Shown here piece after piece: positions 3,065 through 64,000 of a stretch of 64,000 nucleotides of DNA. Positions within the stretch are counted from its first letter, which is position 1. The number at the start of each line of letters is the position of its first letter. The position numbers and the translations under genes were made by a program. Under the pieces are notes generated by a model, which saw nothing but the letters and a program-made list of their open reading frames with translations, made no database searches and was not told the origin of the DNA. The stretch spans positions 17,684,043 through 17,748,042 of the forward strand of contig CM068839.1 in NCBI GenBank assembly GCA_028554795.2, in the 5' to 3' direction. The DNA comes from Sinohyriopsis cumingii. Taxonomy: Eukaryota; Mollusca; Bivalvia; Unionida; Unionidae.

Positions 3065-3375
3065 TCAGTATATGATAGAAACATTCCACTCAATAATCCA
3101 TGTACATCAGTATAGAATAGAAACATTCCATCCAATAATCAATGTACGTCAGTGTAGGATAGGAACATTCCATCTGATAATCCATGTATGTCAGTGTAGG
3201 ATAGGAACATTCCACCCAATAATCCATGTACATCAGTGTAGGATAGGAACATTCCACACAATAATCCATGTACGTCAGTGTAGGATAGGAACATTCCACA
3301 CAATAATCCATGTACGTCAGTGTAGGATAGGAACATTCCACCCAATAATCCATATACACCAATGTGGTACAGGAA
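3065..3375. repeat. Minisatellite, 42-bp unit, about 7 copies
   Basis: Unit GGAACATTCCACACAATAAT followed by CCATGTACGTCAGTGTAGGATA. The unit length is a multiple of three, so reading frames stay open on both strands (130, 105 and 121 codons). These are repeat artefacts, not genes. Confidence 0.9.
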
Positions 3376-4205
3376 CAATGATAAAAATATACAATCAGTG
3401 TGAACATGTAAAAAAAATAAGCAAAACAGAGAAAAATTATATACTTGATTCAACCTTGATCTAGAACTGATTTTCCTTTTATAATTAATAATGAAAAGAT
3501 GCATTAAAATAACAATTACAGCAGATTTTTTTAGCTCAAAACTGGAACAGAATCTGTACTCATTGCTAGGTCAAAGTGTCATTTTGAGGGACAATAACTT
3601 CAGCTATTGCATGTTGTAGGGTGTAAATGTGATGCAGTTTGTTTGTACCTTTATTGCTGTGTAAGAATTCTCAAGTCATGAAGGAAATCAAGGAGCATTT
3701 GCCAGTTTGTGTGCACTATGATCACAGTAGATTTGGTGGGGGTTTTAACAGCAAACACATAATTGGCTATTTCAAGCTGAGGTATTTCAAGCTAAGTGCC
3801 TTTCTCAAGAAAGACCACTGACAGCTGACATAAGTTGGTTTTAGCAGTTATCGAACCTGTGTCCATTGGATAGTGAGTCTGATGGTCTACCAGGAGGGCT
3901 ACTGTAGCAGGTCACATGATGAAAGATAGAAATACTCCATGTTCTACTTTGGAAAGTATGATGCTACTAGATGTAGATCAAAAGAATCTGTCTTATTTTA
4001 GGATTATGCAAGTCAATATATTTGGCATCATTCATTTGGAGTTGTTTCTCCATATATTAAAACATGCAAATTGTAATTCGAATTTTAATTTTATACAACC
4101 TGATGTAACAAAAATCATATTGTCTGTAAGCAAGAACTGTTAATAGGACCTACTTGGATGAACATATACTGGCATGCCACATTTAACCTTGAGAAAGAAT
4201 ATGCT

Positions 4206-5023: not shown

Positions 5024-8000
5024 GTCACTGCCAGATGGTATGCATAAATTGCCCCAAGGAAGCAGTTACATGATATGGCTGCCACATATTCTTCATGTAA
5101 CGACTGACTGTTGATTATTTTTAATTCAATGACGTATGAACTGACAAATCTTTTTTGGTCATAGTTCATTGAATTTAAAATAATAAACAGTCAATCCTTA
5201 TAATTAAATTTGACAGCATAAATAGCTAAATAAACTCATAGTTTAACAACATTCTTTTATTTAGACATTTTGAATTTCATTCATAAGGTGCAATGATACA
5301 GAACAATGAAGATTCATGATGTAGCTCTACAGCCAATTAGAGAAAAGCATAGTTTTAAAGCCATGTCCACGTCTCATTTGAAGACAAGGCCACCACTTAA
5401 GTTAAAAAATCAAAATCCATACTTACACAATAGAAATCATTGTCTGCAAAGACTGTTTTGTTGTGTTTGGGCAAAACATGATTTTGTTCTTCATTTTCAT
5501 CAATCTTTAGGACTATATTCAAATCACCCTGCAAAATCCATTTCACACTGTACTGTCATGTCTTCACATCAACATATGTAAGTAGACAATGTTAATTTAT
5601 TCATTTAAAGTGTATTTTAATTTTAACGTTAGCAAAGATAACTCATTTATTTAAAAAGGGTCAAATATTTGGTTAATGATTAAAATCTTACGTAAGAAGT
5701 CTATACAGGCTTTTATATATTATCTAATATGTCAAATGTTTGCTTATCTCAGCTGGGAAAGCATTGAGCTCCTAAAGTAAAGGTTGTGGTTTTGAACCCA
5801 CATGTGGCTGTAAAATATTTTTCTTTTGAATATTATGTACAGAAAAGTAGTACAGGTGGGCATGGCTTTAAAATTAATTGGGTTCATACAGATATAAACC
5901 CAAAATCTGAAAAGGGCCTGGCCAATCAGATTGCAATAAACCATAATGGCAAAAGAAAATTTTAATTATTTTTATATAGTATTTTTATGAGTTATGGAGA
6001 CTAAATGTTACTTACTGTATAACTTACATATAATTTTTTCTAATCAAGCTCAAAATGTATTGTTCAGGGTCAAGGATAGGTAATCATTTTGCAGTAATCT
6101 GTCACATGGGGCAACAGGTGCTAACCCTACACAGATGCAGCCCATATGCTAGTAATGATATAAGAATTGGTTCTAAAGCATGCATCAGAGAAAGACAATA
6201 ATCAATATTTCTATGAACTGAGTGTTATTGAGCATTGTCACTCACACTGCACTGTGGAACACCTTGAATGTTATTGAGCATTGTCACTCTCACTGCACTG
6301 TGAAACACCTTGAGCAACCTTGCTGAAAAACAAGGACAAAAGGAAACACTTTCTGCATTCTTGTAATGTTGTTTAGTTCAGTTGGGTACACAATTGATAA
6401 ATAAATTTAAATACGAAGAGAAATGCATAGATTATGAAAATCAGTGTTCCAAAAAGTGGCTATGAATACTGGAATTAAATTTGTTTTTATTAACAAATTA
6501 TATCTATTTAAAATGACATAGAAAGTTTCAGTATGGTAATTTATACTACTTAGAGTTCTACTCAAAAATGATTGATTTCCATTTCAAATGGCATTGAATG
6601 AAGGCTGTCTTCATATTTTATATAGCATTTGATCTACTATGGTAAGAATGATATACACAGATATATTTATGAAATGGCTGAATTTTAAAAAAAATTACTA
6701 TCATCAAGATAATTCCCATGAATGACTAGTATGGTTCTACCAGTTCTTTACACAATTCTCAAAAGATTACACACACACATACACACACACACACACACAC
6801 AGGTATATGCATGTATGAGTGTATTTTCATATCTGCTAAGCAAATATCTTGAACAAGTTTTTGCGAAACCTTGAAAGCATATTTGGAACATCAGTACAAA
6901 ATAAAATAGAAATTGTCCATGATCTGTAAAATAGAAATTGTCTTTGACCTATGAATGACCTTGACCTATTTCTTTGTCATTCAGGATTCGGGTAGTTTCC
7001 TGTATTATACTGATGTAAGTAAGGATTTTCTCAAATGTGTCATGATGGTTTAATCTAGAAGAGAGTAGAACTAGAATTCTTATTTTGGCATGTTCAAATT
7101 AAAAATGTTGAATGGCAACCTGCAATTTGTCAGATGGAATTAGTGTTTAGTACCCATATTATTGAATAGCTATGGATCAGTTGCATAAAATGACTCAAAT
7201 TTCAGTGCAGCATGCAATAGTTGTATTATTTTAATAAGTGAACTATTATCCAGTTAATCTCTAGTAGCAACTAGCCAACTAGCCTGTGTCTGGCCAGTTC
7301 TGAAAATGTTTGTAGAAAATGTATTGAAAATATATCAGTTTTTAATCATTAGCCATTATTTCTGATCTCAACTTTTGTTTGTTCCAAAATGAATATTGTC
7401 CTCACAAGGAATAAAATGTTGTACATACAAAATTTTATGACAATGGAACCTTAAAGCCTTGAGGCAAAATATGACCTTTGTCACCATGACATTGTCCATG
7501 TCTTTGTTATTACTTATGATGACAGAATTAAAAAGTTTTCTATGTAAATATTATCTGCTGGAAGAATAGATGTGCATGTTTGCAGCGATGCACTCAAATA
7601 GATTTTTTGTTCAGTAATTTGTTAGAATTTCGACAGACATTCTTTCCATATGCACAGCATTTGAGATTGTTTCATTTTAGTCCTTTACTTAATGTAAGAT
7701 TGCATGTTTAAAAACAATTTGTTTTGAGGTTTGTGTAAAAAATAATGTATATATTATAATGTAACCATATTTCATCATGTTTCAACCATAATTGTTTTTA
7801 TGAAATGAACTTGTCAGAAATTAGGGCATGAGAAGTCTAAGGTTTTGCACATTTTTGTGATCTAGTTTTGTGATAGCAATTTGTTATACATGTATTGAAA
7901 CGTCAGGTCAGTTGTTGGAGTCTCCAGAGAGTTCAAGGACATTTTTAGTTTTTGTTTTGAGGAACATGCACTCTAAGCAAATGACCAGAAATTTCAAATC

Positions 8001-8136: not shown

Positions 8137-9190
8137 TCACTCTCTTGCTATGAGGCCCCTTGAAAATAATATAAAGCACTCCATTGTTATAAGGCATTTC
8201 AAACTAATATGCACCTTCTCTTGCATAAAGCCCTTCAAACTGATATTTAGTACACTCTTGATATAAGGCCCCTCACAACTAATGTCCAGTACTTTCTTGC
8301 CATGAAGACCCTTACAAAAAATATACAATACTCTCTTGCTGTGAAGACCCTTACAACTAATATACAGTACTCTCTTTCTACAAAGACCCTTACAACTAAT
8401 ATACAGTATTCTCTTTCTACAAAGACCCTTACAACTAATATACAGTACTCTCTTGCTATGAAGACCCTTACAACTAATATACAGTACTCTTTTGATATGA
8501 AGACCTTTGCAACTAATATACAGTACACTCTTGCTATGAATACCCTTACAACTAATATACAGTACTCTCTTGCCATGAAGACCCTTACAACTAATATACA
8601 GTACTCTTTCTATGAAGACCCTTACAACAAATACACAGTACTCTCTTTCTATGAAGACCCTTACAACTAATATACAGTACTCTCTTGCCGTGAAGATCCT
8701 TACAACTAATATACAGTACTCTATTGCTACAAAGACCCATACAACTAATATACAGTACTCTCTTGCTATGAAGACCATTACAACTAATATACAGTACTCT
8801 TTCTATGAAGATCCTTACAACTAATATACAGTACTCTCTTGCTATGAAGACCCTTACAACTAATATACAGTACTCTCTTTCTATGAAGATCCTTACAACT
8901 AATATACAGTACTCTCTTGCTATGAAGATCCTTACAATTAATATACAGTACTCTCTTGCTATGAAGACCCTTACAACTAATATACAGTACTCTCTTTCTA
9001 TGAAGATCCTTACAACTAATATACAGTACTCTCTTGCTATGAAGACCCTTACAACTAATATACAGTACTCTCTTTCTATGAAGATCCTTACAACTAATAT
9101 ACAGTACTCTCTTTCTATAAAGATCCTTATAACTAATATACAGTACTCTCTTGCTATGAAGATCCTTACAACTAATATACAACAACGTAT
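8137..9190. repeat. Large 39-bp minisatellite, about 27 copies
   Basis: Unit AAGACCCTTACAACTAATAT followed by ACAGTACTCTCTTGCTATG. Thirty-nine bases equal 13 codons, so several frames on both strands stay open for 110-213 codons. Opposite-strand frames are equally open and no codon bias is evident. Copies at the left end (before about 8300) are more diverged than those in the middle and right. Confidence 0.95.
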
Positions 9191-10013
9191 ATTATAGATA
9201 ACATACATTATGAGCACATGCTGCTTTAGTACACTTACATCTGATGTATGTTAATTTTTAATACTGATGATCATGTAATTTTTAAAATACTCAGTGTGGG
9301 ATCCTGTAATTTTTCATACATTATCTCTTCCCCAAAATGAAATATTTTGTACACATTTTTTGTACTTTTGGAGAATTATTTTCCATGTGAAAAATAAGAT
9401 AAAGTGATTTGGATGACATAATCCATATATAAGTTGATTCAGAGTATAAGATGTAGCTAAGATTTTCTGGTCAAAAAGTCTTGTCTTATCGGCAGGCAAA
9501 TATGGTATGGCACAATATGTATGGTATGATTTTGCTAATTCACATGACATCAAATAAGATGGATCATTGTGATTATTTCATTGGTACATGTTAATTTATA
9601 ATTACAGCATACACTTTCTTACATTCAGTCAAAGAGGGTGGCTTGTTGCAAGTCATTTTCATAATGATGAAATTATTGATTTTATTCTTTTTTACAATAC
9701 AGAGGGTTTTTTAAACCATGGAGTACCTGTTGTTGTAGAGATATGCACCTGTCTCTTTACCTGATGAGGATGTGGAACCAGTAAAAAATACACCGATCAT
9801 GTGTCATTATATTTATAGCAATTATTACATATGCTACAATTATGTTGTTCTTATACTTATTATAGTTCAATAGTTTTTGCAATTATCACATTTACAATTG
9901 TCACACTTTATATTTATTACAATTGTTACAAGTATATAATTATTACCAGTATTACAATTGCTACTATTTATAGTTATTACATTTATTGCTATCATGCCTA
10001 CTTGTCATTATAG
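9191..10013. other. Intron sequence upstream of the first recognised Cav2 exon
   Basis: AT-rich sequence with no ORF of interest. The last 200 bases are pyrimidine- and AT-rich (many TTTAT and ATTAC blocks) and end in the acceptor TTGTCATTATAG before the exon. Confidence 0.5.
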
Positions 10014-18489: not shown

Positions 18490-20195
18490 AATGAATATAC
18501 TAATGATTATATTTATAGTGGATATACAAATGATTATGGTTATAGTGGATATAAAAATGATTATGGTTATAGTGGCTATACAAATGATTATGGTTGTGGT
18601 TCATATATAAAATAATGGTAGTTATAGTGTATATACAAATGATTATGGTAATAGTTCATATACAAAATAATGGTCCTTATAGTGGCTATACAAACAGTTA
18701 TGGTTAAAGTGGATATACAAATGATTATGGTTATAGTTCATATAAAAAATAATGGTGGTTATAGTGGATATACAAATGATTTTGCTTATAGTGGATATAT
18801 ACAAATGATTATGGTTATAGTGGATACACAAATGGTTATGGTAATAGTGGATATACAAAATGATTATGGTTATAGTGGATATACAAATGGTTATGGTTAT
18901 AGTGGATATACAGATGATTATGGTAATAGTTCATATAAAAAATAATGGTGCTTATAGTGGATATACAAGTGATTATGGTTATAGTGGTTATACAAATAGT
19001 TATCGTTATAGTGGATATACAAATGGTTATGGTAATAGTGGATATACAAATGATTATGGTTTTAGTGGATATACAAATGATTATGGTTATAGTGGATATA
19101 CAAATGATTATGATTATAGTGAATATACAAATGATTATGGTTATAGTGGATACACAAATGATTATGGTTATAGTGGATATAAAAATGATTATGGTTACAG
19201 TGGATCTACAAATGATTATGGTTATAGTGGATATAAAAATGATTATGGTTATAGTGGATACACAAATGATTATGGTTATAGTGAATATACAAATGATTTT
19301 GCTTATAGTGGATATACAAATGATTATGGTTATAGTGGATACACAAATGATTATGGTTATAGTGGATATAAAAATGATTATGGTTACAGTGGATCTACAA
19401 ATGATTATGGTTATAGTGGATATAAAAATGATTATGGTTATAGTGGATACACAAATGATTATGGTTATAGTGAATATACAAATGATTTTGCTTATAGTGG
19501 ATATACAAATGATTATGGTTATAGTGGATACACAAATGATTATGGTTATAGTGGATATAAAAATGATTATGGTTATAGTGGATCTACAAATGATTATGGT
19601 TATAGTGGATATAAAAATGATTATGGTTACAGTGGATCTACAAATGATTATGGTTATAGTGGATATACAGATGATTATGGTTATAGTGGATATACAAATG
19701 ATTATGATTATAGTGGATATACAAATGATTATGGTTATAGTGGATACACAAATGATTATGGTTATAGTGAATATACAAATGATTTTGCTTATAGTGGATA
19801 TACAAATGATTATGGTTACAGTGGATCTACAAATGATTATGGTTATAGTGGATATACAGATGATTATGGTTATAGTGGATATAAAAATGATTATGGTTAC
19901 AGTTTATCTACAAATGATTATGGTTATAGAGGATATACAAATGATTATGATTATAGTGGATATACAAATAGTTATGGTTATAGTGGATATACAAATGATT
20001 ATGGTTACAGTTTATCTACAAATGATTATGGTTATAGAGGATATACAAATGATTATGATTATAGTGGATATACAAATAGTTATGGTTATAGTGGATATAC
20101 AAATGATTATGGTTATAGTGGATATACAAATGATTATGATTATAGTGGATATACAAATGATTTTAGTAATAGTGGATATATAAATAATTATAAAT
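18490..20195. repeat. Large 27-bp minisatellite, about 60 copies, with long open frames
   Basis: Unit GGATATACAAATGATTATGG followed by TTATAGT. Twenty-seven bases equal nine codons. One frame (18860-20281) therefore encodes about 45 repeats of GYTNDYGYS, and another (18945-20183) encodes repeats of DIQMIMVIV. Variants (AAAAATGAT, GATTTTGCT, TCTACAAAT, TTATCTACA) recur in identical order, showing duplication of blocks of several units. Both plus-strand frames are open equally, and the array sits inside an intron, so I treat it as non-coding repeat. A Gly/Tyr-rich structural protein would look superficially similar, but there is no signal peptide and no supporting upstream sequence. Confidence 0.9.
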
Positions 20196-20369
20196 TTAAA
20201 ACTAAATGCATGAATGATTTATACATAGGCATATTTCTGCAATGGTGTTCAAGGATATTACAACTCCACTTTTTCAAATGATGATGAAGAAAGTTCTTCC
20301 CCATTTGACAGCATAAGAAAACCTGAGATATATATTATATCTGAACATTTACAGGTATCTGAAAAGTGG

Positions 20370-55338: not shown

Positions 55339-56586
55339 TTTGATGTTATTTGTGAGTTAGATCTGGCTTATGAAAAATGCAAATTCATATAAAATCTTTG
55401 ATTGCATCATACACAAAAAGTGTCAAAACAGCAAGAGCATACCGTGCATGCATTTATGGATGTAAATAATTGCATGACAATATTTTAATTTACATTGTCT
55501 TTTTACTTTTACGTACAAAAACAGAGAATTTCCAATAATACTCGTATATTTATCAAATTGTTTGCATATCGCGCATGCACAATTATTAAAAGAAACACAA
55601 GTTGTTCTTTGAAAAAAGTAGGTAATTTTTGTACTTGCCCTATCCCCCCCCCCCTTCTCAATCACATTATCAATCAGTAGCTGGAATTGGATTTAGAAGG
55701 GGTTTTGCATGCGAGTCAGCATATATCTCCAGTTCACTTATCAGTAAGCGATAAATCTGATTAATGTAATAATTGTATTTTACAGGGCTTCCGTGCAAAT
55801 AGATGTAAGAGCACATAATGCAAGAAAGTTGTCGGCTTGTGAGCTTTATTTTAATGATAATTAGCATATCTGCCGAAAGTTGATTTATATATGGGTTGAT
55901 TGCAGGTGTTTAATTTGTTAAGTTTAGCTGATTTGATTAATGTTAAAGTTTGTAGGAACACGTTAGTTTCAATGCAGCTAAATACAAACTGTACTAAAAA
56001 TGTCATTATTTTAATGCGAGTTTGTTTTAATTTGGGTACGTTTTCACGTGAGTACGTTTTAACTTGGTTACGTTTCGGTCTGGGTTCGTTTTATCTGTAA
56101 ACTTTACATGTTCGGCCCACGATTTATATAATAGTAATGTGGGTGCAATGTTCTTTTCTTTTTAAACGGACAGTAGTGAAAGGGGGTGACATATGGACAA
56201 TGGGACTTCCATGTTAAAAAGTGTCGCGGGACTATAAAGGAGTGGGCTACTATACGGGCAAGGGAATTTAAATTAGTGAATGTATGGCGATAATGTATTG
56301 GGCCTGTCTACGGACAGTATGAATTGGAGAGGGGTGACGTCAGTGTACTGGACACTGGGGAAACAATGGCAACAATGTTGCAAAGGGCTGACCTCAATCG
56401 GGCGGAACAGTGTTGCAAGGGGCTGACCTGAATACGCGCTACTCTAGGGACTAATAGAGACAAACACAGAGACGTGGTCAGAGACAGGGTTAGAGACATA
56501 GAGACACGGACATACATAGATTTATCGACATAAATCTATCACACAAAAAGACGACTAAAACATTTTTATGCAAGAGAAAATAGGCA
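55336..56586. other. Transition zone; left limit of the virus-like element lies here or just to the right
   Basis: AT-rich until about 56150, then a stretch with CGGGACTATAAAGGAG, two copies of GTTGCAA(A/G)GGGCTGACCT (about 56375 and 56410) and a GAGACA-rich run (56455-56515). Nothing here is coding. The region may include the terminal inverted repeat of the element, but its partner would be outside the window. Confidence 0.4.
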
Positions 56587-56622
56587 TCTTTTCGAGACAA
56601 TTGAAGGGCACTGAAAAGCGCC
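56587..56622 (-). terminator. Histone-type mRNA 3' stem-loop and downstream element, copy 1 (minus strand)
   Basis: On the minus strand, CCCAAA leads into GGCGCTTTTCAGTGCC (56607-56622), a 6-bp stem (one G-U pair) with loop TTTC. Ten bases later comes CTCGAAAAGA (56587-56596). This is the layout of replication-dependent histone mRNA ends: an SLBP-bound stem-loop, cleavage a few bases later, and a purine-rich downstream element for U7 snRNA. It lies about 140 bases after the stop of the 68-residue gene at 56761-56967. Confidence 0.8.
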
Positions 56623-56760
56623 TTTGGGTTTCTTCTTCTAATTTCTATCTTCTCTTCTTCTCCACCAACTTGTCATCTTCTCCATCACATTTGTCTCCTT
56701 TTTTCTTTTCATTTTCTTCTTGTTTCATTAGCTTATCATTGTATCTTCTAATCTGTTATT

Positions 56761-56967
56761 TTACTCCAAATCCTCCTGTTTTTCTTTTTCCTGTTTTATA
56801 AGGTCTTTTAATATTTCCTTCCCTCTCCTTAAATTATTGATTTCCACTTTCAATCTGTGAGGGCTATATGAACCATATTCCAACCTTGTAAGCATTTCTT
56901 CAACTGTCCCTAAGGTATCCACAACCTTTTGTAACTTCTGCGTTTTGTCGACGTAGTTCGTTGCCAT
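56761..56967 (-). CDS. Small coiled-coil protein (68 aa) of the virus-like element
   Basis: An intact ATG-to-stop frame of 68 residues. It is highly charged and predicted helical throughout: LQKVVDTLGTVEEMLTRLEY with heptad-like leucines, then LRRGKEILKDLIKQEKEKQE. No signal peptide or membrane segment. No known domain is recognised. Its reality is supported by context: a TATA box (GGTATATAATATG at 57011-57023) lies about 45-55 bases before the ATG, and a histone-type 3' end follows the stop at 56587-56622. It could be an oligomerising accessory or a small structural protein. Function unknown. Confidence 0.65.
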   Translation of the reverse strand: MATNYVDKTQKLQKVVDTLGTVEEMLTRLEYGSYSPHRLKVEINNLRRGKEILKDLIKQEKEKQEDLE

Positions 56968-57010
56968 CGCTTTGAAAATTCACAGATGAAGTGCGCAAAG
57001 ACGAACACTA

Positions 57011-57023
57011 CATATTATATACC
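57011..57023 (-). promoter_or_regulatory. TATA box for the 68-aa gene
   Basis: Minus strand GGTATATAATATG. With the usual spacing of about 30 bases, transcription would begin near 56985, leaving a leader of about 20 bases before the ATG at 56967. Confidence 0.6.
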
Positions 57024-57576
57024 TCAAAAACGGACGTGAAGGAAAACATCCCCTCTCGCCAACTACACACACCGAGCAATCCACATAGATAAGAGTGCTA
57101 AACTAAAATAATTTTTTTTTACAAACCAATACACTAATACCAACAAAATCCGAAATACCAGTACTCTAAGCATAAAATGTCTTTGTCCATGTAAGGCCAC
57201 TTTTGTCATTGAGTTAAATAGATTTTTTTTCTTCAAAAAGATAAGCAAAGAGACAAAGCAAACATGTCAAACTATTTAATTTTAGTATACAATTTTTTAT
57301 TTTTGCCCATCATTGCCCTTTCTTATTCCTTCTTTCAATAGTAATTGCAGTAAAATGATTTATGTACATAAGTATGAAGGATCACAAATAGAAATTAAGG
57401 TTTCACTTAGATTATTATTTACTACAAACATTCTGTGAATGTTCAGGTATTCATCCAGACAACTACCTCTTATTCTAGTTGACTATACAAATACGCTATT
57501 AAGTGTATAATGAACAGACGTTTAAGAACCTCTATAAACAGCATAGAACATCCCCCCTCCTTTTAGAACATTTTGA
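57024..57576. other. AT-rich spacer, nothing recognised
   Basis: No supported gene. A 61-codon minus-strand frame (57063-57248) is hydrophobic and T-run driven, and I do not call it. Confidence 0.45.
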
Positions 57577-57948
57577 AGAAGAAAAAAAAATCGAAAAAAA
57601 AAAATTAAAAAAAAAAAGAAGAAAAAAAATTTAAAAAAAAATCGCAAGAAACACCAGGCAAATGCAACAAGAAACCAGCGATGTAAAGCAAGCAGGACCG
57701 TTCCCGAGTTCTCCTTCCCACTAATGACAGCCAACCATTCAACTGTAGGGACCTTTATGGACCCACAGATTGAGGCCAAACTATCAGGGTTCCTTGAATC
57801 CATAAAAGCCTGGGGGAGGTGGCACCATCTTATTCCCCAGGAACAACTAGCAGGCTGCGGTGCAGTCAGAAAAAAGTGGCACAAGCACAATTGTGCGCAC
57901 GCCACTATAATTAAACTCGACAACAACAAGACGTCCAAAATATCGTGA
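57577..57948 (+). CDS. Possible basic protein fragment, no clear start
   Basis: A frame of 123 codons is open from just after a stop at 57574 to TGA at 57946-57948. The first 25 residues are almost all Lys, Arg and Asn, coded by A-runs. An ATG at 57724 gives 74 residues with STVGTFMDPQIEAKLSGFLE, then IKAWGRWHHLIPQEQL and a Cys/His-containing end (RKKWHKHNC). The part after 57724 has a balanced composition unlike the surrounding AT-rich DNA. No family recognised. It might be an exon, a truncated gene of the element or chance. The opposite strand is also open, so confidence is low. Confidence 0.3.
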   Translation, partial: RRKKNRKKKIKKKKKKKNLKKNRKKHQANATRNQRCKASRTVPEFSFPLMTANHSTVGTFMDPQIEAKLSGFLESIKAWGRWHHLIPQEQLAGCGAVRKKWHKHNCAHATIIKLDNNKTSKIS

Positions 57949-58389
57949 AGTCAATTTATTTTTCTTAGACATGTGCTCAGAACTAAGACAATATCCTTTG
58001 TTGTTGAATTAGTGTTTTATTTATATTATTTTAATGATGTTATAACATCACTTGATCAAAAGGAAGAATAAAATTCAATCAAAACGTGCATAAGATGTAA
58101 ATGTTCTTCAACTTAATTAAAGTTTTCGTGAATTTCAATTATTATTATAAGCTACTAAGAATATCCATCATATTCTTTATTACTTCTTTTTGCTTTCAAA
58201 CCATAAAGCATGTCCAGTACATTTGAATTATTAGTTAGATATGTTGTGAAGCGTTTACATTCATCAAATAACGATTAACAACTGGTCTACGTATATGAAT
58301 ACACCTCCATAGATTGGAGTATATTTTAGTGTATTTGGGTAAAAAGACGTGCTGTTGCTTTTGTCGTGAGTAGTGAAGGGGGATCCTAT
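57949..58389. other. AT-rich spacer, nothing recognised
   Basis: No ORF or RNA gene visible. Composition resembles the host DNA, so it may be a host-derived insertion into the element or simply its intergenic DNA. Confidence 0.4.
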
Positions 58390-58635
58390 GGGTCTATGGG
58401 ATTTATCATTAAAAACACCCTTGGGAACATATAGGGTCTATGTAAATTTAACATGGAGAAAAATCGTGGGAACATATAGGGTCTATGGGAATTTAACATG
58501 GAGAAAAACCCTGGGACAATATAGGGTCTATGGGAATTAACATGGCCAAAAACCCTGGGACAATATAGGGTCTATGTATATTTAACATGACCAAAAAAAC
58601 CCTTGGGACTGTATAGGGTCTATGTAAAATTGAAA
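58390..58635. repeat. 45-bp tandem repeat in the virus-like element, 6 copies
   Basis: GGGTCTATG occurs at 58390, 58434, 58479, 58524, 58568 and 58615, a spacing of 44-47 bases. The unit is GGGTCTATGGGAATTTAACA, TGGAGAAAAACCCTGGGACA, ATATA. A 40-base A-rich tract (AAATAAAAAATAAAATAAA) follows at 58636-58675. Confidence 0.9.
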
Positions 58636-58700
58636 CATAAAAAAATAAAAAATAAAATAAAAAATAAAATAAAAAAGGGGTAGGCAATGGAAAGGCTATC

Positions 58701-58736
58701 TCTTTTCGAGATATATGGCTGGCCCTGAAAAGGGCC
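58701..58736 (-). terminator. Histone-type mRNA 3' stem-loop and downstream element, copy 2 (minus strand)
   Basis: Minus strand: CCAAA then GGCCCTTTTCAGGGCC (58721-58736), a perfect 6-bp stem with loop TTTC. Then exactly 10 bases and CTCGAAAAGA (58701-58710). It matches the metazoan histone mRNA consensus GGYYCTTTTCAGRRCC. It lies about 23 bases after the stop codon of the 76-residue gene, the short spacing usual for histone genes. Confidence 0.9.
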
Positions 58737-58758
58737 TTTGGTTTATGTTAATATGCCC

Positions 58759-58989
58759 TTAACATAAAGGGCATTTGCGACATCTTCTTGTCCTCAAACT
58801 TCGTCTTACAGCAGGGCCATACATCAGAGTTCTCTTGAGGCAACCTTGTCTCTCTATATAGACTCTTCTTATCCACAGGCTGCTGCTGGTCCTGTGGACA
58901 ACGGTCCACTTGGATCGGACATACATGAGCATGTCCGTCCTGAACATCATTGTTGACACAAGGGTTGAAGATTCAACGTCTGTCCACAT
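58759..58989 (-). CDS. Small basic protein (76 aa) of the virus-like element
   Basis: Intact 76-residue frame, MWTDVESSTLVST at the start, becoming strongly basic in the second half (SLWIRRVYIERQGCLKR, then AVRRSLRTRRCRKCPLC). Net charge is clearly positive, with four Cys, three of them in the last eight residues (RCRKCPLC). No known domain recognised. Basic Cys-containing small proteins could bind DNA or act as core proteins in a capsid, but this is inference. Promoter and 3' end are both visible: TATAAATA at 59034-59041 and a histone-type stem-loop 23 bases after the stop. It is divergent from the Gln-rich gene that starts at 59209. Confidence 0.65.
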   Translation of the reverse strand: MWTDVESSTLVSTMMFRTDMLMYVRSKWTVVHRTSSSLWIRRVYIERQGCLKRTLMYGPAVRRSLRTRRCRKCPLC

Positions 58990-59028
58990 GTTGAGGCTCC
59001 GACAATAGGTGAATCAATGCAGTGAACT

Positions 59029-59161
59029 GCGCTTATTTATAGGGACAGAAAGGATTGAAACGGATTGAGTTCATTCACCAATCCGAACACGCGTTACAGA
59101 ATTCAGTCAGCCCGCATCCAATCTGAAGAGAGCAGTCTGTGACGTCACGTAGTCTATATAG
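59029..59161. promoter_or_regulatory. Divergent promoter with two TATA boxes, CCAAT boxes and a CRE
   Basis: For the minus-strand 76-aa gene: TATAAATA (59034-59041, minus). For the plus-strand gene: CTATATAG (59154-59161), with an initiator-like GCAGTCA about 25 bases later. Between them are CCAAT at 59078-59082 and 59118-59122 (plus) and a perfect TGACGTCA at 59140-59147. CCAAT plus TATA and CRE elements are common in cell-cycle and histone promoters. Binding is predicted, not shown. Confidence 0.7.
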
Positions 59162-59208
59162 ATTCGCTAGCGCTTGTGTGCAGTCAATCTATGCGACAGT
59201 GATTCAAC

Positions 59209-59793
59209 ATGACGGAAACTCAGAAAACGATCCAATGGGGTGCACAAACAGGGGAGACCGCCCAAGGGAACCCGGACTTACTTTCAGAAGAGGTGAATTG
59301 GGATTTTGTGGATTTTCTCTCCTCGCAAGAATTTGTTCCGGAACCTTCGTTACCTTCTTCATTACCGCAAGTGGAAAATTTTAGACAGAGACAGAAAGAA
59401 GAATTGGAGAAATTTATACAACGACAAAAGGAAGCGGAACAGGCTTTTCTCCTACAGCAACAGCAACAAGAAGAAGAGGTAAGAAAAAAACAACAGCAAC
59501 AACAGCAAGAAGAAGTAGCAGCAAAGAAACAAGAGGGTGAAAATCAAACGGTCACGGTACTGTTGGACATTTTAGCGGAGTTAAGAAGTCTGAAACAAAT
59601 GTATCAGACTTCTTTATCACGGCCGAAGAGAATACGACCTTCCCGAGCTAAACACGTCAACCCTGTGACTAAACCTACCGTACCACCCTTAGTGATTTCA
59701 ACCCAATCATTATCATCATCATCAACATTACGCAGTCCAGAAGTAGGCCTTGGCCGTGGCAAAGGCAAAAGGCAGTTAAAGTTGATTGCTTAA
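59209..59793 (+). CDS. Gln-rich coiled-coil protein (194 aa) of the virus-like element
   Basis: An intact ATG-to-stop frame of 194 residues. The N-terminal third is acidic with aromatic residues (EEVNWDFVDFLSSQEFVPEP), similar to a short activation-type segment. Residues about 58-110 form a charged, Gln-rich coiled coil (FRQRQKEELEKFIQRQKEAE, then runs of five and seven Gln). A short hydrophobic helix follows (TVLLDILAELRSLKQMY). The C-terminus is basic and Ser-rich with a possible nuclear localisation cluster (RPKRIRPSRAK) and ends GRGKGKRQLKLIA. No catalytic domain recognised. Start chosen because it is the first ATG after the TATA box. A histone-type stem-loop follows 28 bases after the stop. 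It may be a transcription or scaffold factor of the element. Function unknown. Confidence 0.75.
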   Translation: MTETQKTIQWGAQTGETAQGNPDLLSEEVNWDFVDFLSSQEFVPEPSLPSSLPQVENFRQRQKEELEKFIQRQKEAEQAFLLQQQQQEEEVRKKQQQQQQEEVAAKKQEGENQTVTVLLDILAELRSLKQMYQTSLSRPKRIRPSRAKHVNPVTKPTVPPLVISTQSLSSSSTLRSPEVGLGRGKGKRQLKLIA

Positions 59794-59820
59794 ACTCACC
59801 CCTTCACCATGAAGAAAAAA

Positions 59821-59856
59821 GGCCCTTTTCAGGGCCACCCACATTTCTCGAAAAGA
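59821..59856 (+). terminator. Histone-type mRNA 3' stem-loop and downstream element, copy 3 (plus strand)
   Basis: GGCCCTTTTCAGGGCC (59821-59836) is followed directly by ACCCA, as in canonical histone mRNAs. After a 10-base spacer comes CTCGAAAAGA (59847-59856). It lies 28 bases after the stop of the Gln-rich gene. An AATAAA occurs about 30 bases further on, in AAAAAAATAAACCCC near 59886-59893, and could be a back-up polyadenylation signal. Confidence 0.92.
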
Positions 59857-60088
59857 AATACAATTTCAATTTGCCAATAACTCAAAAAAATAAACCCCAC
59901 CCATTTTACCCTTATAGTACGTGTCTGTGTATGAGTGCGTGAGTGTAGCTTCTTATTTTAAAATCAAAACTCAAAGACACTTACCTTATATCATTAATTT
60001 ATTCTTTTCTCCATTTTTTACAATCCAATTCACAATTCACAACACAACACTTTAATTAAAAGTTCATTGACTTCTTCTTTCTCCTTGT

Positions 60089-60562
60089 TTAGTCTCTCTG
60101 TTTTTTGAATTTCTTCACCGTCTTTTCCTCATTTTCTTCCCTTCTTCTTTTCTTCTTCTCCTGTTGCTTTGCCTCTTGTAAATAGAATTGTCTTTTTTCT
60201 TCCTCTTCTTCCTCTAAAGAATCCCTCTCTTCTTTCGAAGAATCCCTCTCTTCTTCTGAAGAATCCCTCTTTTCTTCTGACTCCTCTTGTTTCTTTTTTG
60301 GGCAATCTGGAGACCAATGTCCTTTTTCTTTACAATAATAACAGGTATCTTGACTTTTGTCTTTTTTAGTCCCTGTTTTTGTTCTTGTTTGACGGTCTGG
60401 ACACTCTGAAGACCAATGCCCTTTCTTCTGACAGATATTGCAAGTATCTTGACTTTTATCTCTAAAGGAAGGAGAGTAGTCCGTAGGCTGGTCTGAAGAG
60501 AATTTTCTAATGACCCCTCGCAAAGCTCTGACGAAACGTTCCATCTGGTTAGTCTCTTCCAT
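60089..60562 (-). CDS. Double zinc-knuckle (CCHC) protein of the virus-like element, 157 aa
   Basis: Start chosen at the first ATG (60562), about 30 bases after the expected transcription start. A longer frame from 60610 would need a GTG start. It begins MEETNQMERFVRALRG. Two perfect CX2CX4HX4C knuckles follow: CNICQKKGHWSSEC (C41, C44, H49, C54) and CYYCKEKGHWSPDC (C74, C77, H82, C87). Each is preceded by the same DKSQDT, so the module was duplicated. Then come three RDSS/RDSL-EEE acidic repeats (about 99-122) and a strongly basic end (KKKRRREENEEK, KKFKKQRD). Zinc knuckles bind single-stranded nucleic acid, as in retroviral Gag. A free-standing one beside a PolB gene is unusual. It lacks a histone-type end; an AATAAA on the minus strand at 59998-60003 may serve instead. 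It is divergent from the polymerase gene. Confidence 0.85.
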   Translation of the reverse strand: MEETNQMERFVRALRGVIRKFSSDQPTDYSPSFRDKSQDTCNICQKKGHWSSECPDRQTRTKTGTKKDKSQDTCYYCKEKGHWSPDCPKKKQEESEEKRDSSEEERDSSKEERDSLEEEEEEKRQFYLQEAKQQEKKKRRREENEEKTVKKFKKQRD

Positions 60563-60696: not shown

Positions 60697-63600
60697 ATGA
60701 AACGATCTAATTCATTCGAGAAGAAAGAAGAAGAAAGTAAGAGGCAGAAACGTGATCTATCGCCTCGAACCAGGACTGAAATCTTGGCACAAATTCATGC
60801 CAGTGATTTTGAAGAGGACATGAGTGAACCAGAATTTGAAACCTCTAAACCAATTTCACCACCCTTAGTCAACCCTGAAAAATACTATTCCATTCGAGAG
60901 ACGGAAAAGCGTTCCTCTAGAAAATTTAGAACCACGGCTTACAAATACACGGTGAAGTTTAAAGATTTCAAGTCCGAAGTACCGTTAGAGAAAGCAGAAG
61001 GGTTCATCACCGGAGTGTGGGATTCTCTGCTCACTTCACTCAAGCGACAATGTCAACCCAAAGAAGACGATCGCTTGAGACTTTCCATACAACACGACGG
61101 TTTGAAATCCCCTGTTTGGATCGAGTTTAGCACCCCTGCAGAATTGACCGCTTCCAAAGTCATGGACAAGATTCAACACGTGCAACAATCTAATGACCAG
61201 TTTGACATCACCGATGGAAAAGCCACATTGGACATGACCCACGTCTCTCCTCCTCAAGGGACCGGACGCAAAAAGATGTTATTGGTGAACGACCTTCGCA
61301 GCATTAAGCGTAGCCTTGTCCAAATTCACAATCCTCATGACCAGATGTGTTTAGCCCGTGCCATCGTGGTGGGACGAACCTATGTCAACAAGAACGACAC
61401 GGCAGAATGGAAAAGAGACTGGGAGAACATTCGACAATCGGACCGAGCCAAACAACGAAGTGAAGCAGAACTCCTGTTACGACAAGCTGGCATGTCCAAA
61501 GACACACCCTGTGGCATTCCTGAGATGCAAAAATTGCAAGATGCCCTAGCTCCACGATACACTTTGAAAGTGCACCCTCAAGAAGTGCGCGGGTCTCTGT
61601 TGTTTCGAGGTCAAGATTTTAAGGACGGAAAATACATTCACGTTTATCATCACGATGACCATTTCGATACCATTACCAGTATCACCGGATTCCTGGGATA
61701 CGGTTATTACTGTGAGAAATGTGACCATGGTTATAATAATCGAGAGCAACACAAGCATTGTGGATCGAAATGCACAGGATGTTTGGCCTCTTCACCCTGT
61801 CTGAGCGAAGAACCAGTGCCTTGTTCGACTTGTCTGCGCACGTTTGTCAGCCCTACCTGTTACCAACAACATTTGAAGACGCAAGGTTCACAGAAGAAAT
61901 GCGCTTGTCAACTGCTGAGATTGTGCTCTACGTGTGAACAAGTCATACGTACCAATAATACCAAGGCACACGTATGTTCAGGAAAGAAAAAATGTCACAT
62001 TTGTCACCACATCGTGGACTTGGAACACCAATGTTACGTGCAAAAATACCAACCCCCACCAGAGAAAGAGGACGGTCACAAGAAGAAAGGGAATTTCATC
62101 TTTTTCGATTTCGAATGCATGCAAGAGACCGGCATTCACATTCCTAATTTCTGCGTGGCTCATCGAGCGTGCGAGAAGTGCATTCAAGAACCTATCTTCA
62201 GTCATTGCCCTCACTGCAGCAAAATTCCTGGAGGGCGTGAAAAAATCTTTCGGGGGCCGAACACGTTAGCCGATTTTGCCCAATGGGTCTTAGACCCCGT
62301 CGACAAGACGTGGAGCCAAGAGGATATCGAAAGTTACGGAGATTGTCATCGTCATGCCACGGTGATGGCTCACAATTTCTCCGGATACGATGGACAGTTT
62401 CTTTTGAGGTACTATACGGAACAAGGCACCGAGCGTCCTAAAGTGACTTTGAACGGAGCCAAAATCATTTTCATGCAAGTGGGACAAGTACAGTTTAAAG
62501 ATTCGATGAGTTACTTGGCCATGCCTTTGAGTCGAATGCCTAAAACGTTTGGAATGACAGAAATGGCTAAAGGGTACTTTCCACACTTTTTCAATACGGA
62601 AGCCAATCAACAGGCCGTTCTACCCCATTTACCTGAGGCTCACTATTACGACCCCGACAACATACGTACCGAACAACGAGAAGCTTTCTACGCTTGGTAC
62701 CAGGCTCACGCCTCGGACCCTTTCGACTTTCAGGAAGAAATGCTAAAGTATTGTCGTTCCGACGTGGACATTTTACGGCGTTGCTGTGGAAAATTTCGAG
62801 AACTGTTCATGGAACACGGAGGGGTTGATCCTTTGAAAGAAGCTTGCACCATTGCCAAAGCGTGTTCCTTAGTGTATCGACAACGATTCATGCCTGAAAA
62901 CACCGTGGCTGTCATCAGTCCTCAAACGACCCACTTTGTCAAACGTCAATACTCGGTCAAAGCCCTACGTTGGTTACATTACTTGTGCGACAAGGAAGAC
63001 AAGTGGATTCAACATGCCCGCAACGGAGGGGGCGAAAAGACCATCGGAACGTATTCGGTCGATGGCTGGGACTTAGAAAACCCCAAGATCGTGTACGAGT
63101 TTAACGGTTGCTTATTTCACGGATGTCCCGTCTGTTACCCTGACCGTGGCACTAAAAATCAGTTTTTGCAACGAACCATGGAAGACTTGTACCAGGACAC
63201 TTGTCAGCGGCGCCTAAAGTTAGAACAGGAAGGATACCAAGTGGTGGAAATGTGGGAACACGAGTACGATCACCGTATGAAAACCGATCCCGAGTTTAAA
63301 CGCCTCGTGGAAAGTTACCAGTTCATGGACCCGCTGAACCCGAGGGATAGTTTGTACGGAGGAAGGACCAATGCCACCTGTTTGCTGTACCAAGCCGACG
63401 AAGAGAAAGGAGAAGAAATCAAATACTTGGACGTGTGTTCGCTGTATCCCTACGTGTGCAAATATTGTCGCTTTCCTGTAGGGCACCCGCAATTGTTCAC
63501 GGAACACATCGACCTGAAAAACATTCCACAATACGAAGGCTTGATCAAGTGTAAAGTTTTGCCTCCCACGAACCTATACCATCCCGTCTTACCTCACCAT

Positions 63601-64000
63601 TGTCAAGGCAAACTGATGTTTCCCTTGTGCCGTACTTGTGCCGAAACGTGCAACCAAGACCAACCTTGTCAGCACAGCCAGGAAGAACGTGCCTTGACGG
63701 GAACCTGGGTCAGCGTAGAATTGTTCAAAGCTCTGGACATGGGATACCAACTGTTAGAAGTGTACGAAATTTGCCACTTTCCCAAGACACAACAATACCA
63801 CAAGGGTGACCCTACTCAGAAAGGCATTTTCGCAGACTACGTGGATGCCTTTTTGAAACTGAAGCAAGAAGCCAGCGGCTATCCGTCCTCGTGTCACACT
63901 CCCGAAGACCAAATAAAATTCAAAGAGAAATACTACGAACAAGAAGGCATCACTTTAGACCACATCGAAAAAAACGAAGGCAGGCGATCGTTTGCCAAAG
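60697..64000 (+). CDS. Protein-primed family B DNA polymerase (Polinton/adintovirus type), 3' end beyond window
   Basis: An uninterrupted frame of 1101 codons from ATG at 60697 to the window edge. Residues 1-330 form an N-terminal region of the kind found before metazoan Polinton/adintovirus polymerases, judged by resemblance. Residues 339-446 are Cys/His-rich (from CEKC to CHICHH and HQC), probably zinc-binding. Exonuclease motifs: I FFDFE (D471, E473), II HNFSGYD (N560, D565), III YCRSD (Y685, D689). At 801-856 lies a Vsr-like nuclease insert: EFNGCLFHGC then VVEMWEHE. Polymerase motif A is LDVCSLYP (D912). Motif B and the catalytic YxDTDS come after the window. All visible catalytic residues are intact with no stop, so the copy may be recent or functional. 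It replicates linear DNA from a protein primer in this family. A linear mitochondrial plasmid is less likely given the linked TATA/histone-type genes. Confidence 0.88.
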   Translation, partial: MKRSNSFEKKEEESKRQKRDLSPRTRTEILAQIHASDFEEDMSEPEFETSKPISPPLVNPEKYYSIRETEKRSSRKFRTTAYKYTVKFKDFKSEVPLEKAEGFITGVWDSLLTSLKRQCQPKEDDRLRLSIQHDGLKSPVWIEFSTPAELTASKVMDKIQHVQQSNDQFDITDGKATLDMTHVSPPQGTGRKKMLLVNDLRSIKRSLVQIHNPHDQMCLARAIVVGRTYVNKNDTAEWKRDWENIRQSDRAKQRSEAELLLRQAGMSKDTPCGIPEMQKLQDALAPRYTLKVHPQEVRGSLLFRGQDFKDGKYIHVYHHDDHFDTITSITGFLGYGYYCEKCDHGYNNREQHKHCGSKCTGCLASSPCLSEEPVPCSTCLRTFVSPTCYQQHLKTQGSQKKCACQLLRLCSTCEQVIRTNNTKAHVCSGKKKCHICHHIVDLEHQCYVQKYQPPPEKEDGHKKKGNFIFFDFECMQETGIHIPNFCVAHRACEKCIQEPIFSHCPHCSKIPGGREKIFRGPNTLADFAQWVLDPVDKTWSQEDIESYGDCHRHATVMAHNFSGYDGQFLLRYYTEQGTERPKVTLNGAKIIFMQVGQVQFKDSMSYLAMPLSRMPKTFGMTEMAKGYFPHFFNTEANQQAVLPHLPEAHYYDPDNIRTEQREAFYAWYQAHASDPFDFQEEMLKYCRSDVDILRRCCGKFRELFMEHGGVDPLKEACTIAKACSLVYRQRFMPENTVAVISPQTTHFVKRQYSVKALRWLHYLCDKEDKWIQHARNGGGEKTIGTYSVDGWDLENPKIVYEFNGCLFHGCPVCYPDRGTKNQFLQRTMEDLYQDTCQRRLKLEQEGYQVVEMWEHEYDHRMKTDPEFKRLVESYQFMDPLNPRDSLYGGRTNATCLLYQADEEKGEEIKYLDVCSLYPYVCKYCRFPVGHPQLFTEHIDLKNIPQYEGLIKCKVLPPTNLYHPVLPHHCQGKLMFPLCRTCAETCNQDQPCQHSQEERALTGTWVSVELFKALDMGYQLLEVYEICHFPKTQQYHKGDPTQKGIFADYVDAFLKLKQEASGYPSSCHTPEDQIKFKEKYYEQEGITLDHIEKNEGRRSFAK

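Follow-up and report, generated by a model that had tools for sequence, protein, structure and literature searches.

Histone-type 3'-end signals behind several non-histone genes of a Polinton/Maverick element in the genome of Sinohyriopsis cumingii

Replication-dependent histone genes of animals are typified by intronless open reading frames (ORFs), TATA boxes, divergent gene pairs, and a short distance between the stop codon and the 3' stem-loop of the mRNA. In animals, such 3' ends are not known to occur to any real extent outside histone genes. Polinton/Maverick elements and adintoviruses encode a polymerase of the DNA_pol_B_2 family, an integrase with rve and chromodomain, and a capsid-like protein, and they feature terminal inverted repeats ending in AGTAGT and 6-bp target-site duplications; the (AGT)2 end motif of Mavericks is described in the accessible part of PMC8097293. 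The element described here, identified in a 64-kb stretch of the S. cumingii genome (hereafter, the window), shares these features, with a candidate for the capsid-like protein, but differs from Polinton/Maverick elements and adintoviruses in that several of its genes end in histone 3' signals. With animal replication-dependent histone genes it shares the stem-loop and its flanks (Rfam Histone3, RF00032), a downstream element at the spacing seen in host H2B, intronless ORFs, TATA boxes, and a divergent gene pair. However, the products of the genes so marked are those of a mobile element and not histones (no Pfam match).

The polymerase ORF (60697–64000, plus strand, continuing past the window edge) matched PF03175 (E 8e-37) and is predicted to be a family B polymerase of the protein-primed type. 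It has 1169 relatives, and the best named ones among the 120 matches listed were mostly from bivalves. The rve and Chromo domains of a retroviral-type integrase were identified in another copy (C1:320-338 kb), the corresponding part of the window copy lying beyond the window. Terminal inverted repeats of 323 bp were 99.4% identical in one copy, and an exact-word search recovered the end AGTAGTGAA in 18 rows (of which L019 and L020 represent a single end). A 6-bp target-site duplication was perfect in two of the three copies tried and matched at 5 of 6 positions in the third. A 437-aa protein was 32% identical to a protein of a distant element (L009, below); both were called capsid by eye, and the 437-aa protein had no sequence match in Pfam, PHROGs, or PDB. 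A protease-like ORF was likewise recognized by eye (L071), and no packaging ATPase was matched among ten proteins from the part of one element that was read (L067). The element is estimated to be present in thousands of copies in the host genome, far above the counts for vertebrate Mavericks in the accessible part of PMC8097293.

Three histone-type stem-loops (HSLs) were identified in the window as exact 16-mer matches, at 58721–58736 (minus), 59821–59836 (plus), and 56607–56622 (minus). Only 0.02 such matches are expected by chance on average, and three were reached in none of 100 shuffles. The sequence CTCGAAAAGA occurs three times in the 64 kb (0.07 expected), at the HSL sites only (58701–58710, minus; 59847–59856, plus; 56587–56596, minus), with a gap of exactly 10 nt from the HSL in each case, and an ORF in matching orientation lies 5' of each HSL. 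These results bear out what a sequence-only reading had claimed of the three stem-loops, namely their places and strands, a shared element exactly 10 bases after each, and a correctly oriented ORF ahead of each. Against the RF00032 gathering cut-off of 34 bits, the regions 59816–59860 (plus) and 58696–58741 (minus) scored above it, at 41.2 and 35.6 bits, and 56582–56627 (minus) scored 21.7 bits, below it.

The claim that the three genes belong to one virus-like element stood in part. The HSLs at 58721 and 59821 belong to a single Polinton/Maverick copy with its left end at 58369 that extends beyond the window, but the third, at 56607, belongs to an older neighboring copy with its end at 56172 (terminus AGTAGTGAA, 56172–56180). 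Thus, the HSL genes of the window are two from one copy and one from another. In the younger copy, the terminal inverted repeat on the left (58369–58744, delimited by its likeness to that of a different copy) has the terminus AGTAGTGAA and holds an HSL at its inner edge. This HSL lies 22 nt past the stop codon of p76 (58759–58989, minus), a 76-aa basic protein with a pI of about 11. Divergent to p76 is p194 (59209–59793, plus), a 194-aa glutamine/glutamate-rich protein of no known family, whose stop codon is 27 nt ahead of its HSL. TATA boxes were identified 52–54 nt upstream of three window ATGs, including TATAAA at 59036–59041 (minus; 52 nt, p76) and TATATA at 59155–59160 (plus; 54 nt, p194). 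In the older copy, the HSL follows by 138 nt the stop codon of a 68-aa ORF (56761–56967, minus), the truncated counterpart of a p128-type gene that encodes ~110–130 aa in other copies.

Rearranged fragments of host histone genes, which the sequence-only reading had named as an alternative source of these loci, do not account for them, as the window HSL ORFs had no Pfam histone match and are under purifying selection (pooled dN/dS among copies of 0.12 for p76, 0.12 for p128, and 0.40 for p194). In full-length copies, the stop codon precedes the stem-loop by 18–24 nt in p76 and, in all but one copy, by 17–28 nt in p194. The genes followed by an HSL comprise p76 and p194 together with, at the opposite end, two or three small genes that mostly belong to the p128 type. 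In the copy at C1:320-338 kb, however, the terminal gene is not p128 but a 198-aa ORF, which was absent from the p128 matches.

Screening of the 2.9-Gb assembly from which the window derives revealed 36,592 exact HSL matches, compared to 4 for the reversed pattern. With the H2B array excluded, CTCGAAAAGA was exactly 10 nt downstream of the HSL at 54 of 60 distinct sampled ends; related copies thus carry the stem-loop plus CTCGAAAAGA, for which the sequence-only reading had suggested a scan of related elements. Each of two better-sampled copies has an HSL and downstream element at five small-gene ends. The downstream element is ~98% conserved among copies, compared to 82–89% in the spacer and flanks; the stem-loop is 99% identical, but copies were sampled by the stem-loop itself. 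The host H2B gene has an HSL identical to that of the element, followed at the same 10-nt spacing by CTGTAAAAGA, which in this one host histone gene type is identical to CTCGAAAAGA at 8 of 10 bases and differs at 2. The 1851-bp array was rejected as another element because it encodes H2B, and no further histone genes were seen near it among ORFs of at least 90 aa in 36.9 kb. An element adjoining this array (L072, with AAA and integrase-like ORFs) had no HSL in the 10 kb read, indicating that the signal is not in every large element of the host genome. An Rfam search of the host genome for U7 returned three weak candidates, none over the cut-off and with nothing recognizable in them.

As annotated from sequence, a set of small intronless genes of the element carries histone 3'-end anatomy, with a stem-loop, 10-nt spacer, and purine-rich downstream element. 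We consider it probable, at roughly 0.85, that these constitute a functional histone-type 3'-end regulon in this Polinton lineage, in which the steps involving SLBP, U7, and S phase are those we infer. SLBP would bind the element stem-loops, the U7 snRNP would pair with the downstream element, and the RNA would be cut between the two and left without a poly(A) tail. The HSL gene set would then be produced, stabilized, and translated while SLBP is available, that is, during DNA replication of the host (or of the element). The predicted structural gene cluster, unlike the HSL genes, ends in a poly(A) signal: the capsid/protease cluster of the two better-sampled copies has AATAAA instead of an HSL. 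The zinc-knuckle (CCHC) gene of the window (157 aa; 60089–60562, minus) is likewise without an HSL and has ATTAAA 32 nt and AATAAA 85 nt past its stop codon.

SLBP and U7 might recognize these signals and yet downstream poly(A) sites might form the main ends, histone ends being minor or conditional. AATAAA is found 52 nt downstream of the p194 stem-loop and 108 nt past the stop codon of a 118-aa HSL gene, such that some HSL genes may use poly(A), and there is precedent in a human H2A gene that uses both kinds of 3' end, according to the accessible part of PMC9756948. However, the 200 nt that follow the p76 stem-loop and the older-copy stem-loop in the window contain neither AATAAA nor ATTAAA, and the short distances from stop codon to stem-loop resemble those of histone mRNA, which leads us to regard mainly polyadenylated ends as unlikely, if a serious contender.

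The position of some HSLs might instead point to a DNA site of the terminal repeat, serving integrase, replication, or packaging, with only superficial likeness to histone ends. Within a copy, the terminal repeats duplicate one another and hold two of the HSLs; those of p76 and the other-end gene lie at the inner edge of the repeat, 243–451 nt from the terminus in all 18 rows whose end was located. Nevertheless, the p194 stem-loop lies ~1.08 kb farther inward, outside the repeat, as do those of the 118-aa and 125-aa genes; nearly all HSLs lie shortly past a stop codon, in the sense of the gene; and the loop, flanks, and downstream element agree with a host histone gene at equal spacing. A DNA site is thus very improbable.

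That the HSLs are passive relics of a host histone 3' end that was caught once, spread with the element, and is now unused is hardly credible, since, although the stem-loop matches its host H2B counterpart exactly and any passenger would be multiplied by thousands of copies, HSLs follow genes of three or more kinds, the downstream element is conserved more strongly than its surroundings, stem pair 1 is A-U in place of G-C in paralogous genes, and the distant element L009 also has a stem-loop. The A-U variant comes from three paralogous rows, which may reflect a single event, and in a covariation control two pairs changed on both sides also occurred in 68 of 500 shuffles and the number of pair types in 284 of 500. 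Capture of a host histone 3' end may nonetheless have been the evolutionary origin of the signals.

Together, these comparisons suggest that the element borrows replication-linked RNA machinery of its host. We lean toward a broader reading in which a virus-like lineage of animals runs one gene class as 'pseudo-histones', comprising the divergent promoter pair and the group of small genes at the opposite end, all with histone 3' signals and all expressed by way of SLBP and U7 while DNA is replicated, and runs its capsid-type genes through poly(A). With HSLs numbering in the tens of thousands in a single genome, the copies may outnumber host histone signals and load or titrate the machinery. If a functional regulon is confirmed, a mobile virus-like DNA element with histone ends on several non-histone genes would represent a new viral route to couple expression with DNA replication, could account for poly(A)-based RNA surveys overlooking such genes, and would provide natural non-histone substrates with which to probe SLBP and U7 requirements.

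Among eight related polymerase contigs from other sources, all partial, an HSL was found in one (L009, CALIZB010000033.1) and none was seen in the parts present of the other seven. L009 comes from a bacterial bin and is a distant relative of the present element, with identities of 37% for the polymerase, 34% for the integrase, and 32% for the capsid-like protein. Its HSL (35.8 bits, gathering-level for RF00032) lies 28 nt past the stop codon of a small gene, as in the present element, but the gene encodes a C2H2 zinc finger, the purine-rich downstream stretch is AAAAAAGAGA, and a TBP-like gene is also encoded. Scans of IMG/VR with the polymerase, the capsid-like protein, and two stem-loop patterns yielded no useful related element. 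Two stem-loop pattern matches (L014, L015) lay inside phage-like ORFs, as judged by eye, and were rejected; RF00032 did not match them with an E of 0.1 or less, and a model built in this analysis gave an E of 0.18. The polymerase profile matched two stretches (L001, L002) of one 316-kb viral contig in IMG/VR, at 31–33% identity over short segments.

The three 16-nt histone-type 3' stem-loops reported in the sequence-only reading, at 56607-56622 (minus), 58721-58736 (minus), and 59821-59836 (plus), were recovered at those positions (0.02 expected by chance), as were the three copies of the purine-rich downstream element CTCGAAAAGA (0.07 expected by chance). The Rfam histone 3' stem-loop model (RF00032) identified 59816-59860 (plus) and 58696-58741 (minus) above its gathering score, and assigned 21.7 bits to 56582-56627 (minus), under the cut-off of 34. 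A covariance model constructed from 16 such ends, all three window ends among them, had no further match across the 64 kb of the window at E<=1. The earlier assignment of all three to genes of one virus-like element holds for the pair at 58721-58736 and 59821-59836, which belongs to one copy, but not for the third stem-loop. This was assigned to an older copy because it lies 2 kb outside the pair, not 13-21 kb inside, and is associated with its own terminus.

The ORF at 60697-64000 (plus) encodes a DNA_pol_B_2 polymerase, the best named relatives of which (among the best 120 of 1,169) were mostly from oysters and clams, which suggests a molluscan host. An rve+chromodomain integrase was identified inside another copy (C1:320-338 kb, C1 being a contig of the assembly), and a protein of that copy is 32% identical to the capsid-like protein of a distant element, L009. 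Copies terminate in AGTAGTGAA, with the exact end found in 18 rows; in the window, the younger copy has its left end at 58369 and the older copy ends at 56172. The terminal repeat, evaluated in one copy, is 323 bp and 99.4% identical, and 6-bp target duplications were perfect in two of three copies tried and agreed at 5/6 bases in the third. Vertebrate Mavericks have (AGT)2 ends and 6-bp duplications, as described in PMC8097293. Judged from sequence, the feature set of the element matches that of Polintons/Mavericks, agreeing in polymerase, integrase, ends, and 6-bp duplications, and putatively in the capsid-like protein. Five tandem copies of a ~45-bp unit occupy 58390-58645 within the terminal repeat, and self-alignment of the terminal repeat from another copy shows the same offset.

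Screening of the 2.9-Gb assembly with the pattern GGYNCTTTTCAGNGCC revealed 18,071 + 18,521 exact matches, as compared to 2 + 2 for its reversed control. The layout was drawn from the first 100 places listed, all on C1. Among these listed matches, 28 minus/plus pairs were 1066-1104 bp apart, and an array of histone H2B genes accounted for 7 places. The other 37 places were single, 20 of them with a pair 13-21 kb behind. The remaining 17 singles, not explained by this spacing, may be truncated copies. The 13-21 kb spacing of pairs and singles therefore indicates an element in which a divergent gene pair occupies one end and the opposite end carries a gene directed outward. As a rough estimate, derived from the counts and not a measurement, the genome holds about ten thousand copies.

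The stem-loop and downstream element were both present when related elements were scanned, at five small-gene ends in each of two copies (C1:320-338 kb and C1:33-55 kb). The genes so terminated in each were the divergent pair p76 (76 aa) and p194 (194 aa), the terminal gene (198 aa in the former copy and of the ~110-130-aa p128 type in the latter), and two p128-like genes adjoining it (118 and 125 aa in C1:320-338 kb). These two neighbors carry AGCCCTTTTCAGGGCT or AGCACTTTTCAGGGCT, followed ~10 nt on by CTAGAAAAGA. The p194 ORF of the C1:33-55 kb copy is broken (147 aa) and its stem-loop is intact. AATAAA without a stem-loop was identified behind the one-strand clusters ending in a capsid-like gene (C1:320-338 kb) and a protease-like gene (C1:33-55 kb), and behind the zinc-knuckle gene of the window. 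The 118-aa gene has AATAAA farther downstream besides its stem-loop and the p194 gene of the window has AATAAA 52 nt past its stem-loop, so that either type of 3' end may be used by these genes; no AATAAA was found in the window within 200 nt behind the p76 and older-copy stem-loops. In loci L067 and L071, several small genes adjoin the terminal one, some recognizably alike between copies and all with histone-type ends, perhaps comprising a small gene family inside the element.

Outside the H2B array, CTCGAAAAGA was positioned at exactly +10 in 54 of 60 distinct ends, the exceptions being in loci L021, L036, L040, L048, L061, and one end in L065. Pairwise identity among p194 ends (n = 26) was 84.7% before the stem-loop, 98.6% in the stem-loop, 87.0% in the spacer, 98.5% in the downstream element, 88.7% in the next 20 nt, and 82.5% in the next 40 nt; the corresponding values for p76 ends (n = 24) were 81.7, 99.5, 85.9, 98.3, 87.1, and 81.6%. 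Because loci were picked by exact stem-loop, the downstream element is the sole unbiased measure of conservation. Pairing was analyzed in 16 ends (15 distinct) picked to include variants. Standard pairs filled 97.8% of pair cells, versus 6.7-63.3% with the partner slid 1-3 columns. At stem pair 1, 12 distinct rows had G-C and 3 had A-U; in one row, both sides of pair 4 were changed. Of 500 shuffles, none attained the covariation score and none the number of changed cells, whereas 68 attained two pairs changed on both sides and 284 the number of pair types. The three A-U rows are paralogues and thus may reflect one event.

Pooled dN/dS (NG86) among copies was 0.12 both for p76, from 136 pairs of 18 distinct intact proteins, and for the p128 gene, from just 18 usable pairs of 9 proteins; for p194 it was 0.40, from 112 pairs of 16 proteins. 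By this measure of their sequences, all three are real genes. The stop codons of full-length copies preceded the stem-loop by 17-28 nt for p194 (except locus L053, where the reading frame continues) and by 18-24 nt for p76; for p128-type copies the distance was 25-63 nt. Stops were farther away in shortened copies (e.g., 138 nt for the 68-aa remnant in the window). TATA boxes were identified 52-54 nt upstream of all three window ATGs. None of 20 p194 relatives had an informative name. The contigs of the one p76 relative and of one p194 relative have the same size (1455) and sources; that the divergent pair was kept in another host is suggested, not proven. The small size and basic character of p76 (pI about 11) prompt the guess that it binds DNA and is produced in parallel with DNA synthesis. 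Long tandem-repeat ORFs in several frames at 3072-3504, 8137-9208, and 18860-20281 are probably satellite-like DNA and not genes.

Host histone genes, proposed earlier as a comparison, bore out the resemblance. An array at C1:5.073-5.085 Mb (5073417-5084538, in part locus L063) has seven stem-loops spaced 1851 bp apart, and in the three units read it encodes H2B as its sole histone rather than a mixed cluster. The H2B 3' end comprises GGCCCTTTTCAGGGCC, 10 nt, and CTGTAAAAGA (RF00032, 37.2 bits). The stem-loop is identical to that of the element, and CTGTAAAAGA differs from CTCGAAAAGA at two bases, H2B being the sole host histone gene type compared. In the clam Lucina pectinata, PMC6210712 reports the stem-loop in all histone mRNAs and a purine-rich element in several. 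Beside the H2B array, a different large element (C1:5053000-5062999) without histone stem-loops encodes a 1036-aa AAA-domain protein and, by eye, ATPase-like and integrase-like ORFs.

SLBP, the U7 snRNP, and the histone downstream element in histone mRNA are described in PMC9756948. By the anatomy of these ends and established histone mRNA processing, the RNA would be cut between stem-loop and downstream element, and the product would be without poly(A). Host SLBP would be the likely binder of the element stem-loops, in which case expression would be coupled to S phase. Within the literature covered, titles and abstract openings of the papers listed described no histone-type 3' ends in Polintons, Mavericks, adintoviruses, or viruses, nor such ends under U7 with mollusc, non-histone use, or RF00032 with virus; the title and abstract opening of PMC12220804, retrieved with histone stem-loop and adintovirus terms, likewise describe none. 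The words 'histone' and 'stem-loop' are absent from the main text of two Polinton/animal-virus papers (PMC8097293, PMC11071308). A third such paper, PMC11071296, refers to histone-like proteins of other viruses and has no mention of a stem-loop, and PMC10294476, on bivalve transposons, mentions Mavericks and no histone.

A polymerase profile search of bacterial and archaeal assemblies yielded 11 loci. One of the eight long-match loci, L009 (CALIZB010000033.1, in a bacterial bin), has an Rfam histone stem-loop (35.8 bits) behind an 89-aa C2H2 gene, 28 nt past its stop codon; the other seven contigs (3-13 kb) had none at E<=0.1. L009 is a distant relative, given its 37% identity to the element in the polymerase, 34% in the integrase, and 32% in the capsid-like protein, and its stem-loop suggests that the histone-end trait probably extends beyond a single host. 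This Polinton-like element also encodes a TATA-binding-protein-like gene at 7189-7695 (minus; PF00352, E 1e-27).
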